Source of the DNA: Chloroflexota bacterium
GTDB lineage: Bacteria; Chloroflexota; Limnocylindria; Limnocylindrales; CSP1-4
NCBI GenBank assembly: GCA_021812735.1
Contig: JAKAMV010000526.1
Coordinates: 1 to 7,183 of the forward strand
Reading direction: 5' to 3'
DNA: 7,183 nt
Every line of letters starts with the position of its first letter. Within the stretch, counting starts at the first letter, position 1. Positions 983 to 5,461 of this stretch are shown piece after piece. The notes beneath the pieces are model-generated. The model ran no database searches. It was not told the origin of the DNA and was given only the letters and a program-made list of their open reading frames with translations. The position numbers were made by a program, and so were the translations under genes.

Positions 983-2362
983 TCAGCGCAGCTCGACGAT
1001 CCGGTAGTGCAGCTCGCCGACCGGCGCGCGCACCACCACGTCGTCCCCGGCGTGGTGGCCGAGCAGGGCCAGGCCGATCGGCGACGTGTTCGAGATGCGG
1101 CCCTCGGCGGGCCGTGCCTCGCTCGACCCGACGATCGTGTAGGTCTCCTCGCCGTCGGGCGACTCGACCAGCACCGTGGAACCGAGCACCACCTCGTCTC
1201 CGCCCGACGGGGCCTGGATGATGGTGGCGTGGCGGATCATCGACTCGAGCTGCGCGATGCGGCCCTCGGCGAACGACTGCTCCTTGCGCGCGGCCTCGTA
1301 GTCGGCGTTCTCGCTCAGGTCGCCCAGCTCCCGCGCGGCCCGGACGCGAGCGATGATCTCGGGGCGCCGGACGCGGACGAGGTCGTCGAGTTCCTCGCGC
1401 AGGCGCAGGAGACCCTCGGCCGTGACGTGGACGGCCGCGGGCTGCCGGGATGGCGGCGGTGGCGCCGCGGCGCGCCGCTGGGCGGCCGTCGGCGACGTGG
1501 CGCCGCGGCGCCGTGGCTCGATCGACGATGACGCGGCGCCGGCAGTCGAGCTCTTCGCGCCTCCGGGCGCGCGCCTCGTTCCGCCGGTGGCATGGGTCCT
1601 CGGCGCCATGCCGAGCTCGCTCGAGACCGCGTTGCCCGGTGGAAGGGTCACCACCCGGCGCGGCGCGGCGCGCGGCGCGGCGACCGGCGGGTCCAGCAGG
1701 TCGCCGGTGATGCCGTGATCCTTGGGCAGGCCGGTGGGCGTCGCCATGTTGGCGAAGGGCACCACCACGGTCGGGTCGTGCAGGGCGGCTGCCGAGGCCG
1801 GGTCGACGGCCTGCGCGAACGCGGCGAGGAGCGCGTCCGCGTACTCCTCGGGGGCGTCGGTCTCCGCCCACCAGACGCGCGCCTGGTCCAGGCCGCGGAG
1901 CGTCTTGAGCCACCCGCCGCCGGCATGCGGCGCGGCGTCGCCGAGTGGCGTCCGCACCATCTCCTCAACGCGGCGCCCGATCACCTCGGCGGTGGAACCC
2001 ACGTACAGCACGACCTGGTCGGGGAGCCAGAACGACGCCAGCCGCTGGGCCAGCTCCTTGCCGGCCGGCCGGTGCCCGTCCAGTTCCAGCGTGGGGACGC
2101 GTTCGATCCAGCTGCCGACGGGCGAGAGGTCGACGGGGGCATGGGCGAGCGGCGCGGGCAGCTCCACGAGATACACGCCCGGGCGCGTGCTGCGGACAGG
2201 CATCCCCCACCTGACCGGTCCGTCTGCCAGCAGCCCCACCTCCCGCAGGAGATCCACGGCCCCTGCCGTCCGCCTGATCACGTCCGCCACCCGTTCACCT
2301 CGCGCTGCTGGATGCCGCCATCGGCCGGGATCGGCGGCTGGGCCGTCCACGGCGCGGGCCAT
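983..2362 (-). CDS. Fusion protein: N-terminal GIY-YIG-like nuclease domain plus C-terminal transcription elongation factor GreA
   Basis: One uninterrupted frame of 459 residues. Residues about 311-459 are a full-length GreA: a coiled coil with 'RRPEII' and 'GDLSENADYEAA', tip acids Asp348 and Glu351 (equivalent to E. coli Asp41 and Glu44), then the globular FKBP-like domain ('SPIGLALLG', 'GDDVVV'). GreA enters the RNA polymerase secondary channel and stimulates cleavage of backtracked RNA. Residues about 60-225 resemble a GIY-YIG domain: 'GVY' 62-64, 'LYVGST' 119-124, Arg130/131, 'PHAGGGWLKTL' 145-155, acidic helix Glu172/Glu173, and a terminal 'VPFAN...HGITG'. The half-motifs are about 55 residues apart, far more than in UvrC. 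Residues about 226-310 are a Pro/Ala/Arg/Ser-rich, probably disordered linker. Normal GreA is about 155-160 residues, so some 300 are extra. ATG 2362 has no Shine-Dalgarno but fits a leaderless promoter; GTG 2290, preceded by AGGTGA, is the alternative. GreA call is firm; nuclease call is inference. Confidence 0.85.
   Translation of the reverse strand: MARAVDGPAADPGRWRHPAARGERVADVIRRTAGAVDLLREVGLLADGPVRWGMPVRSTRPGVYLVELPAPLAHAPVDLSPVGSWIERVPTLELDGHRPAGKELAQRLASFWLPDQVVLYVGSTAEVIGRRVEEMVRTPLGDAAPHAGGGWLKTLRGLDQARVWWAETDAPEEYADALLAAFAQAVDPASAAALHDPTVVVPFANMATPTGLPKDHGITGDLLDPPVAAPRAAPRRVVTLPPGNAVSSELGMAPRTHATGGTRRAPGGAKSSTAGAASSSIEPRRRGATSPTAAQRRAAAPPPPSRQPAAVHVTAEGLLRLREELDDLVRVRRPEIIARVRAARELGDLSENADYEAARKEQSFAEGRIAQLESMIRHATIIQAPSGGDEVVLGSTVLVESPDGEETYTIVGSSEARPAEGRISNTSPIGLALLGHHAGDDVVVRAPVGELHYRIVELR
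1656..1682. repeat. Five CGGCG units at the junction of the GIY-YIG-like and GreA halves
   Basis: On the plus strand three consecutive CGGCG units (1656-1670), a CG dinucleotide (1671-1672), then two more units (1673-1682). In the minus-strand frame it encodes Ala/Pro/Arg-rich linker just after the nuclease-like half. The unit is 5 bp, so gain or loss of a unit changes the frame of everything downstream, including GreA. Gain of one unit (or of the CG pair) would lead the frame to a TGA at 1650-1648. Confidence 0.7.
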
Positions 2363-2370
2363 GCCCGCCC

Positions 2371-2399
2371 ACCCTACGCGACCGGCGCGTCCTTGTCAT
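2371..2399 (-). promoter_or_regulatory. Putative promoter of the greA fusion, giving a leaderless or near-leaderless mRNA
   Basis: On the minus strand a -35 box ATGACA (2399-2394, five of six to TTGACA), a 17-nt spacer, and a -10 box TAGGGT (2376-2371). Eight nt separate the -10 box from ATG 2362, so transcription would start within a few bases of the start codon. This supports ATG 2362 over the internal GTG 2290. Not experimentally known. Confidence 0.5.
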
Positions 2400-2432
2400 G
2401 GAAGCGGGCTCGCGCCGGGGTGGCGCGGGGCG

Positions 2433-2438
2433 TACGAT
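2433..2438 (+). promoter_or_regulatory. Possible -10 box of ppk2
   Basis: TACGAT lies 49 nt before the ppk2 start in an otherwise extremely GC-rich 125-bp divergent region. No convincing -35 box is found at 16-18 nt; TTGTCA at 2393-2398 is 34 nt away, too far. It would give a leader of about 43 nt containing the Shine-Dalgarno site. Weak evidence. Confidence 0.25.
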
Positions 2439-2475
2439 CGGCACGGCGCGCGTCCTCCGCCGGTCGCAGGGCGAC

Positions 2476-2480
2476 AGGAG
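2476..2480 (+). promoter_or_regulatory. Shine-Dalgarno site of ppk2
   Basis: AGGAG followed by a 7-nt spacer to ATG 2488. It selects this ATG over the in-frame ATG at 2398, whose upstream sequence lacks a site. Confidence 0.75.
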
Positions 2481-2487
2481 AACGGCC

Positions 2488-3453
2488 ATGCCGAAGGACC
2501 AGGGTCGGCGCGATCACCACGGGCACGGCGCGGCGGCGTCGGAGAACGCGCCGGGTCCGCCGCCGGCCGTCCCGATCGGGATTGCGGGTGCCCACGGTGA
2601 CACAAGCGGTGCCGTGGAAGCCCAGGGTGACGCCCTCGGTGCGGCGGAGGTCCACGGAGACGCCCGTGTGGTGCCCGGCACCCTCGACCGCCGGAGCTAC
2701 GAGAGCGAGCTCGCGCGGCTGCAGATCGAGCTGGTCAAGCTCCAGGAATGGATCCGCGCGCAGGGCCGGAAGCTGGTCGTCATCTTCGAAGGCCGTGATG
2801 CGGCCGGGAAGGGCGGCGTGATCCAGCGGATCACCGAACCCTTGAACCCTCGGTACACGCGCGTGGCGGCCCTGGCGGCGCCCACCGAGCGCGAACGCAC
2901 GCAGTGGTACTTCCAGCGCTACGTCGCCTACCTGCCGTCCGCCGGCGAGATCGTGCTGTTCGACCGCAGCTGGTACAACCGCGCGGGGGTCGAACGTGTG
3001 ATGGGGTTCTGCACCGAGGAGGAGTACCGCGAGTTCCTGCGCTCGTGCCCGGAGTTCGAGCGGATGCTGATCCGATCCGGCATCACCCTGGTCAAGTACT
3101 GGTTCTCGGTCAGCGACGAGGAGCAGGAGCGTCGGTTCCAGGAGCGCATCGCGAACCCGACCAAGCGCTGGAAGCTCAGCCCCATGGACCTCGAGTCGCG
3201 GGCGCGGTGGGTGGAGTACTCGAGGGCGAAGGACGAGATGTTCGCCTACACGGACATCAAGCAGTCACCCTGGTGGGTGGTGCCGTCCGACGACAAGCGC
3301 CGGGCCCGGCTCAACTGCATCCACCACCTGCTCTCGATGGTGCCCTACGAGGACCTCACGCCCGAGCCGATCGTGCTCCCGCCGCGCCAGCCGGACTCCG
3401 GATACGTCCGGCCGCCCATGAGCGACCAGACGTTCGTGCCACAGGTGTACTGA
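2488..3453 (+). CDS. ppk2: Polyphosphate kinase 2, class I
   Basis: Cytosolic P-loop kinase transferring phosphate between polyphosphate and nucleoside diphosphates, usually favouring ADP/GDP phosphorylation in class I. 321 residues from ATG 2488. Seen: residues 1-65 are a low-complexity tail rich in Gly, Ala, His and Asp; from about 70 the PPK2 domain begins ('SYESELARLQIELVKLQEW'). Walker A is 'EGRDAAGKGG' (101-110), Walker B 'VLFDRSWYNR' (156-165), and the lid region carries 'KRWKLSPMDLESR' (226-238), followed by 'WVEYSRAKDEMF' and the C-terminal 'SPWWVVPSDDKRRARLN' typical of PPK2. All catalytic motifs are intact. The gene is divergent from the greA fusion and convergent with sppA, so it is probably transcribed alone. 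The tail before residue 65 is not part of the family fold and is described separately. Confidence 0.95.
   Translation: MPKDQGRRDHHGHGAAASENAPGPPPAVPIGIAGAHGDTSGAVEAQGDALGAAEVHGDARVVPGTLDRRSYESELARLQIELVKLQEWIRAQGRKLVVIFEGRDAAGKGGVIQRITEPLNPRYTRVAALAAPTERERTQWYFQRYVAYLPSAGEIVLFDRSWYNRAGVERVMGFCTEEEYREFLRSCPEFERMLIRSGITLVKYWFSVSDEEQERRFQERIANPTKRWKLSPMDLESRARWVEYSRAKDEMFAYTDIKQSPWWVVPSDDKRRARLNCIHHLLSMVPYEDLTPEPIVLPPRQPDSGYVRPPMSDQTFVPQVY
2578..2667 (+). repeat. Three 30-bp (10-residue) degenerate repeats in the ppk2 N-terminal tail
   Basis: Units 2578-2607, 2608-2637 and 2638-2667 encode GIAGAHGDTS, GAVEAQGDAL and GAAEVHGDAR. The shared core is Gly-Ala-x-x-x-(His/Gln)-Gly-Asp. Both amino acids and bases (GGTG start, GGTGAC or GGAGAC near the end) are related, suggesting tandem duplication in a disordered tail. 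Confidence 0.6.
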
Positions 3454-4592: not shown

Positions 4593-5198
4593 GTGACCGA
4601 CCCCGATCGCCCCGGCGACGCGCGGCGCGACGAGGAAGCCAGGCTCTTCCTGCGCGTCCGCGGGGGCGACGAGCGTGCCCTGGAGGAGCTGTACCAGCGG
4701 TACTCCGGCGCCCTCTACTCGCTGGCGTACCAGGTGACCGGCGGGGACCGGTTCGCGCAGGACGTGGTGCAGGAAGTGTTCATCGCCGCGTGGCGCGACG
4801 CGGCCCGCTTCGACCCCGCCCGTGGCAGCGTCGGCGCCTGGCTCTTCGGGCTCGCGCGCCACAAGGCGATCGACGTGCTCCGGCGAGAGACCACGGCTCG
4901 TCGCCGGGTGGCACCGGAGGCGGATCTCGAGCTCGAGGTGGCGCCCGACGACGTGGACCGTGACGCCTGGGAGCGCATGCGCCGGGAGCGCGTGCTCGAG
5001 GCGCTTCGCCAGCTGCCCGAACCCCAGCGCGTCTGCGTCGAGCTGGCGTTCTTCTCCGGGCTGACGCACGTGGAGGTCTCGGAGCAGCTCGGGATCCCGC
5101 TCGGAACAGCCAAGACGCGGATCCGCACGGGCCTGCTGCGGCTTCGCGACCTCCTCGGCGATTCGCTCGCCGAGCTGCCGGCGGGTGGTGCGGCGTGA
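4593..5198 (+). CDS. ECF-type RNA polymerase sigma factor (sigma-70 family)
   Basis: Two-domain alternative sigma factor that redirects RNA polymerase to a stress regulon. 201 residues from GTG 4593. Seen: region 2 from about 28-100 ('LEELYQRYSGALYSLAYQVT', 'FAQDVVQEVFIAAWRDAARFD' and 'GSVGAWLFGLARHKAIDVLRR'); an acidic linker 105-128; region 4 from about 132-188 with 'LRQLPEPQRVCVELAFFSGL' and the helix-turn-helix 'THVEVSEQLGIPLGTAKTRI'. The lack of region 3 and the short length are typical of ECF factors, most like SigK/RpoE-type groups paired with zinc-binding anti-sigma factors. Its stop codon overlaps the next gene's start (GTGA), so the two are translationally coupled. ECF group and target promoters cannot be determined; no clear copy of a typical ECF -35/-10 pair was recognised upstream. 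Confidence 0.95.
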   Translation: MTDPDRPGDARRDEEARLFLRVRGGDERALEELYQRYSGALYSLAYQVTGGDRFAQDVVQEVFIAAWRDAARFDPARGSVGAWLFGLARHKAIDVLRRETTARRRVAPEADLELEVAPDDVDRDAWERMRRERVLEALRQLPEPQRVCVELAFFSGLTHVEVSEQLGIPLGTAKTRIRTGLLRLRDLLGDSLAELPAGGAA

Positions 5199-5461
5199 GC
5201 CACCGTCGGTACCTGGAGCTGGCCGCGGGCGGTGTGCTCGATGACCTCGACCCGGACGAGCGGGCGCTCCTGGAGCAGCACCTGGCGGAGTGCCGGAGCT
5301 GCCGGCTCGGCGCCCGCGACATCGGGGAGGTGGTGACGGCGCTCGGGATGGCCACGCCTCGCCGCGCGGTGCCCACCGGCACCTGGGGATCCATTCTCTC
5401 CGCGATCCGCGAGGCGCCGTCCGGGTCCTCCGGGTCCCGCGTGCCGCCCGCTACTCGATAG
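5195..5461 (+). CDS. Short zinc-finger (ZAS-type) anti-sigma factor, no transmembrane segment
   Basis: Presumed inhibitor that binds the ECF factor encoded just upstream. 88 residues from GTG 5195; a GGGTGG lies 6 nt upstream, and the start overlaps the sigma stop by GTGA. Seen: '[24 protein letters not shown]' followed by His29-x3-Cys33-x2-Cys36 ('HLAECRSC'), the ZAS signature of zinc-binding anti-sigma factors, then '[10 protein letters not shown]' and '[16 protein letters not shown]', which resembles the stretch that precedes the membrane helix in longer relatives. Here the protein stops with a polar Ser/Gly/Pro tail and no hydrophobic segment, so it would be cytosolic. Signal sensing could be redox- or zinc-based at the Cys pair; this is inference. 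The 3' end overlaps the convergent AI-2E gene by 11 bp. Confidence 0.85.

Follow-up and report, generated by a model that had tools for sequence, protein, structure and literature searches.

A second GreA fused to a GIY-YIG-type domain in part of one Chloroflexota class

Results

Architecture of the fusion protein

The stretch of Chloroflexota DNA analysed here (the window, 7,183 nucleotides of contig JAKAMV010000526.1) carries on its minus strand, at positions 983–2362, an open reading frame (ORF) of 459 codons from its ATG, in which the presence of both a GIY-YIG-type domain and a complete copy of the transcript-cleavage factor GreA, joined by a linker, is confirmed. A GTG at 2288–2290 (minus strand) is the likelier start, because it is preceded by AGGTGA and matches the start of the closest relative among the matches listed, P0001, which is 96% identical to the window protein. 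It would give a protein of 435 residues, leaving the first 24 of the longer reading doubtful. Residues are numbered throughout on the 459-residue reading from the ATG.

Both Pfam and NCBIfam identify the last 149 residues as an ordinary GreA. The N-terminal coiled coil (PF03449, expect value (E) 1.2e-26) spans residues 312–381 (1220–1429, minus) and the C-terminal domain (PF01272, E 1.9e-21) residues 389–457 (992–1198, minus), both scoring above the cut-off, as do the NCBIfam greA models NF001263 and TIGR01462. In the PDB this half matches 1grj (E. coli GreA) at E 1.7e-31. By alignment the tip acids Asp348 and Glu351 lie in the segment encoded at 1310–1321 (minus), and they are kept in all 121 rows of an alignment, A1, of the window protein with the top 120 of 1171 matched database proteins and in 73/73 fusions (72 detected by pattern and one by visual inspection). 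Searched against Pfam at E up to 1, the whole protein matched PF03449 and PF01272 only. On its sequence the fused GreA is best read as cleavage-competent, and the claim of an earlier note that a full GreA with both tip acids is present holds by Pfam, NCBIfam and A1 alike. Between the two halves lies a linker of approximately residues 228–310 (1433–1681, minus), rich by composition in Ala, Pro, Arg and Ser and with a net charge of +11. Across the fusions the linker is 40–126 residues long, basic and of low complexity, with a net positive charge in 73/74.

Relationship of the N-terminal domain to GIY-YIG nucleases

The N-terminal domain (approximately residues 35–222; 1697–2260, minus) is net acidic and was modelled with a predicted local distance difference test score (pLDDT) of 92.8. 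When the model was compared with known structures by VIA-align, rows 2–6 of 7 were GIY-YIG nucleases, while the top row was the N-domain of a plant glutaredoxin. By hhalign the domain aligns with a small stand-alone GIY-YIG family with a probability of 98.8 over 129 columns, and profile–profile comparison with the same program ties that family to UvrC. The weak points are that a direct hhalign comparison with UvrC gave a probability of 2, and thus no link, and that Foldseek returned no significant row for the domain. PF01541 matched neither the whole window protein nor any of 31 N-domain rows, the window included, and nothing below E 0.01 was found for the domain in Pfam, NCBIfam, PADLOC or PHROGs. 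The best stray library match, P22_Cro (E 0.012; the family appears in 3/31 rows), was rejected, and the single row from a PDB sequence search with the domain profile (E 1.7) was taken as chance. By the model, the structural rows and the transitive hhalign link, the domain is placed within the predicted GIY-YIG core fold and looks to descend from DNA-cutting enzymes. The earlier note had staked its assignment of a GIY-YIG domain fused to a full GreA on profile searches. Direct searches gave no match, but the transitive profile–profile and structural links were found, and through them the assignment is supported.

The small stand-alone proteins (P0244–P0363 and ORFs at L104:1740–2237 (−) and L105:1887–2375 (−)) belong to a widespread family and share GVY, YIG, Arg, Trp and PFAN with the N-terminal domain, although they lack a GreA. 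The L105 protein is encoded near a large ORF that is helicase-like by eye. Compared with the established GIY-YIG nucleases (UvrC N-domain, 1yd6; R.Eco29kI, 3mx1, 3mx4 and 3nic; R.Hpy188I, 3oqg), the window protein lacks a PF01541 match, has alanine in the register of the metal-binding glutamate and separates its two half-motifs by 55 residues with two helices between them.

A further set of proteins carries the same N-terminal domain fused to a winged-helix-like C-terminal domain in place of GreA (L108:2324–3457 (+) and L110:1805–2875 (−); also L106, L147–L150, L168, P0133, P0154, P0163 and P0171). These retain the catalytic Glu and Asn. A full-length model of this type was poor (pLDDT 52) except for the C-terminal domain, and gave no significant rows in Foldseek. 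Pfam and NCBIfam have no match for either the small stand-alone or the winged-helix-type proteins. On plasmids, one weak match to the N-terminal domain was seen, to a Nocardia hypothetical protein (NZ_CP109567.1:229942–230355 (−), 31% identity, E 2e-4).

State of the active site

In the hhalign register the canonical GIY-YIG Tyr, Tyr, Arg, Glu and Asn fall at residues 64, 120, 131, 175 and 205. Both half-motifs are present with their tyrosines, as GVY (residues 62–64, 2171–2179, minus) with Tyr64 and YVG (residues 120–122, 1997–2005, minus) with Tyr120. Arg131 (1970–1972, minus) and Asn205 (1748–1750, minus), the latter in a PFAN motif at 202–205, are likewise in place in the register and in the alignments. 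Codon 175 (1838–1840, minus), in contrast, encodes alanine, so that the window protein lacks the metal-binding glutamate. GVY, YVG, the following arginine (Arg131), the helix (171–185 in the model) and PFAN agree with what the earlier note reported for this frame. Within that helix, neither Glu172 nor Glu173 falls at the catalytic position; Glu173 was considered for it and dropped because the register points to 175.

The loss extends well beyond the window. Among the 75 distinct fusions from all fetched loci (one Asn cell being masked), Tyr64 is kept in 41, Tyr120 in 44, Arg131 in 75, Glu175 in 48 and Asn205 in 40. All five are kept in only 8, at least one has been lost in 67, and Glu is absent at 175 in 27. 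In A1 a hand count gave 39/121 complete rows. The equivalents in the small stand-alone family are, on the other hand, invariant (34/34 rows of alignment A3 and 11/11 in the joint alignment). The four eroding columns have roughly average conservation within the fusions (percentiles 48–60), with Arg131 and the structural Trp and Gly columns the most conserved; beyond the catalytic positions, Trp85, Trp112, Gly141, Trp151, Trp164, Trp165 and Pro202 are strongly conserved. On a tree of the GreA domains the four columns require at least 14, 15, 11 and 6 changes, and on a tree of the N-terminal domain 13, 15, 7 and 7. In 13 rows, mostly from peatland (fen) metagenome-assembled genomes (L008, L010, L013–L015, L017–L021, L027, L028 and L033), residue 173 is Leu in 13/13, Asn205 is replaced in 12/13 and Glu175 is present in 13/13.

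Distribution of the fusion

A protein search gave 1171 matches among 7993 candidates scored, and the best 120 of these all contain both GreA Pfam domains and cover 45–96% of the query. In a genome scan the N-terminal domain was encoded in 32 of 52 loci, all titled Chloroflexi or Chloroflexota. The class containing genome G002, which is probably Limnocylindria since several source names say Limnocylindrales, was then represented by 177 genomes (G001–G177). The domain profile matched in 93 of them, at 95 places, and at 82 of these places a GreA C-terminal domain follows no more than 1.5 kb downstream on that strand, in 80 cases within the same ORF; in G024 and G066 the two parts are in different frames. 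The remaining 13 places comprise three contig ends (G011, G043 and G050), two small stand-alone proteins (L104 and L105) and eight with another architecture (L106, L108, L110, L147–L150 and L168). The fusion is thus not due to chance, since the best 120 of the 1171 matches carry both GreA domains and it recurs at 82 of the 95 places. Other proteins with both domains, which the earlier note had asked about, therefore exist, and relatives are mostly fused rather than always encoding the halves as separate genes. A 400-genome sample of the phylum gave 32 matches, all already known from the class. Three source names fall outside the class (Gaiellales, Binatia and Patescibacteria), and these records may be misbinned.

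Within the class, 93/107 genomes of the block G001–G107 are positive (92 without G100, whose sole match is a small stand-alone protein), compared with 0/70 of G108–G177; the genome numbering would appear to follow kinship. rpoB was detected in 64/107 block genomes, and 58 of those 64 have a match (57 without G100). One place is found in 91/93 genomes, with a second in G041 and G059, and a separate scan gave one copy in 25/25 genomes. Given the positives in the block and the rpoB-checked fraction, the fusion acts like a core gene there, mostly in single copy. Not fitting a simple core-gene picture, 6 of the 14 negative block genomes (G044, G065, G074, G076, G090 and G104) have at least two GreA matches. 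G053 has an unfused GreA, L130, that belongs to the fused type.

The fused GreA is mostly a second one, as the earlier note had asked: a further PF01272 match was found in 77/82 fused genomes (one in 70, two in 7) and none in five, though some matches may be contig-end fragments. Among the 70 genomes G108–G177, 58 have one GreA match, five have two and seven none. A quick tree built from 115 GreA domains places 19 of the 20 stand-alone GreAs sampled in a single clade (Shimodaira–Hasegawa-like approximate likelihood ratio test (SH-aLRT) 93), and 73/73 fused GreAs lie inside another, of 78 rows (SH-aLRT 92). The remaining rows of the latter are L130, the contig-edge Chloroflexi sequence L036 and three unclear ones (L029, L030 and L033), owing to which the fused label requires 6 changes on the tree, at least 3 of them forced by starred branches. 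Because fused and stand-alone GreAs form separate clades, the fused GreA is, as judged from these sequences, most likely an old paralogue and not the housekeeping gene with an addition.

Neighbouring genes

Across 31 loci and the window, gene clusters recurring near the fusion in at least four loci mainly reflect synteny of close relatives. Five loci by motif (L005, L016, L022, L023 and L025; six by cluster) carry a DEAD-box helicase ORF that shares the strand of the fusion ORF and is approximately 3.7 kb or less from it, in L005 immediately following it. In the window a PPK2 polyphosphate kinase gene (2398–3453, plus strand) is divergent from the fusion gene, its Pfam match beginning only at residue 96. 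Further on, an extracytoplasmic function (ECF) sigma factor gene (4593–5198, plus) overlaps a zf-HC2 gene (5195–5461, plus; both by Pfam), which likely encodes its anti-sigma factor.

Discussion

The window protein shares both domains and both tip acids with GreA, but adds an N-terminal GIY-YIG-type domain and a basic linker and is a paralogue that most genomes carry in addition to a stand-alone GreA. A literature search that reached neither bioRxiv nor most subscription papers found no article in which GreA and GIY-YIG both occur as whole words, and no description of the architecture was found in the literature searched, in keeping with its unfamiliarity to the earlier note. The nearest described proteins, the Effector-TPR-GreA/B-C-PIN conflict proteins (PMC8195603), likewise couple an effector or nuclease domain to a GreA-type domain. 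They have, however, only GreA/B-C, together with TPR and a C-terminal PIN, and the paper's text nowhere contains the term GIY. The window protein has a full GreA at its C terminus and neither TPR nor PIN among its Pfam matches; since the GreA C-terminal domain ends at residue 457 of 459, there is no room for a C-terminal PIN.

From the observed anatomy, conservation and phylogeny we infer a tether and its ligand. It seems to us about an even chance that the gene encodes a lineage-specific second GreA tethered by a mostly eroded, nucleic-acid-binding GIY-YIG domain. Gre factors are usually seen as small diffusible proteins. Here, in part of one Chloroflexota class and mostly beside another GreA, a basic, low-complexity linker joins a GreA to a domain whose relatives include the small GIY-YIG family. 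In most members, the window included, that domain would no longer cut but may bind DNA or RNA in the vicinity of the elongation complex. Such binding would concentrate the cleavage factor locally or restrict its action to certain stalled complexes. Some members, a minority, may still be nucleases. Weighing against the loss of cutting, every one of the 75 fusions has Glu173 or Glu175 and all 27 without Glu175 retain Glu173 and Asp176, and therefore a shifted acid may possibly serve as the metal ligand in place of Glu175.

Alternatively, though we think it rather unlikely, the old GIY-YIG fold could be a protein-interaction module, with polymerase, a repair protein or itself as its partner, and so time the action of this GreA. 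The acidic character of the domain, its conserved non-catalytic Trp, Gly and Pro residues and the glutaredoxin row at the head of the structural comparison would all suit such a role. It has no need, however, of the arginine found in 75/75 fusions, at a position thought in the GIY-YIG superfamily to contact phosphate (PMC2630997), and the winged-helix-like C-terminal domains of the sister proteins are suggestive of a nucleic-acid role.

That same arginine, the relationship to GIY-YIG nucleases and the complete members (8/75 fusions and 39/121 rows of A1) would be expected of an RNA-polymerase-guided nuclease, in which GreA would bind a stalled polymerase and the GIY-YIG half would nick DNA close by, serving repair or the clearing of R-loops. 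The chemistry would be carried out by shifted acids (Glu173 or Asp176) or by the complete members alone; Glu173 or Glu175 is always there, and Hpy188I offers a precedent for an unusual GIY-YIG site (PMC2630997). In Eco29kI, by contrast, Y49A and E142A abolish cleavage while DNA binding stays (PMC1952068), and the fusions often lack the matching Glu175 and Tyr64, as well as Tyr120 and Asn205. We judge this reading unlikely, and as stated in the earlier note, with nuclease activity brought to the polymerase, it is unsupported given Ala175 in the window and the 67/75 incomplete fusions. More doubtful still is its specific form, in which GreA would deliver the domain to backtracked polymerase, where complete members, and others if Glu173 or Asp176 bind metal, would nick template, R-loop or branched DNA and so couple repair to backtracking. 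A defence role of the kind proposed in PMC8195603, where a GreA/B-C domain brings an effector to phage-hijacked polymerases, is very improbable, and cleavage of phage DNA, also raised in the earlier note, finds no support: the logic of effector plus GreA-type domain is shared and DNase effectors occur in those systems, but the window protein ends in a full GreA, coiled coil included, and has no further Pfam domain, the gene mostly occupies one place per genome and is present in most genomes of the block, PADLOC gives no match, and 0/102 stretches on viral contigs were confirmed as relatives.

Part of one class thus keeps a core-like second GreA, its tip acids intact, on what looks to be a nuclease-derived domain whose catalytic residues change repeatedly. 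Because complete and incomplete active sites both occur in nature, tethering and cutting can be tested side by side. If the GIY-YIG-type domain is a tether, it would be a natural means of directing transcript cleavage to specific DNA or RNA; should the complete members prove to be nucleases, they would connect backtracking physically and directly with DNA cleavage.
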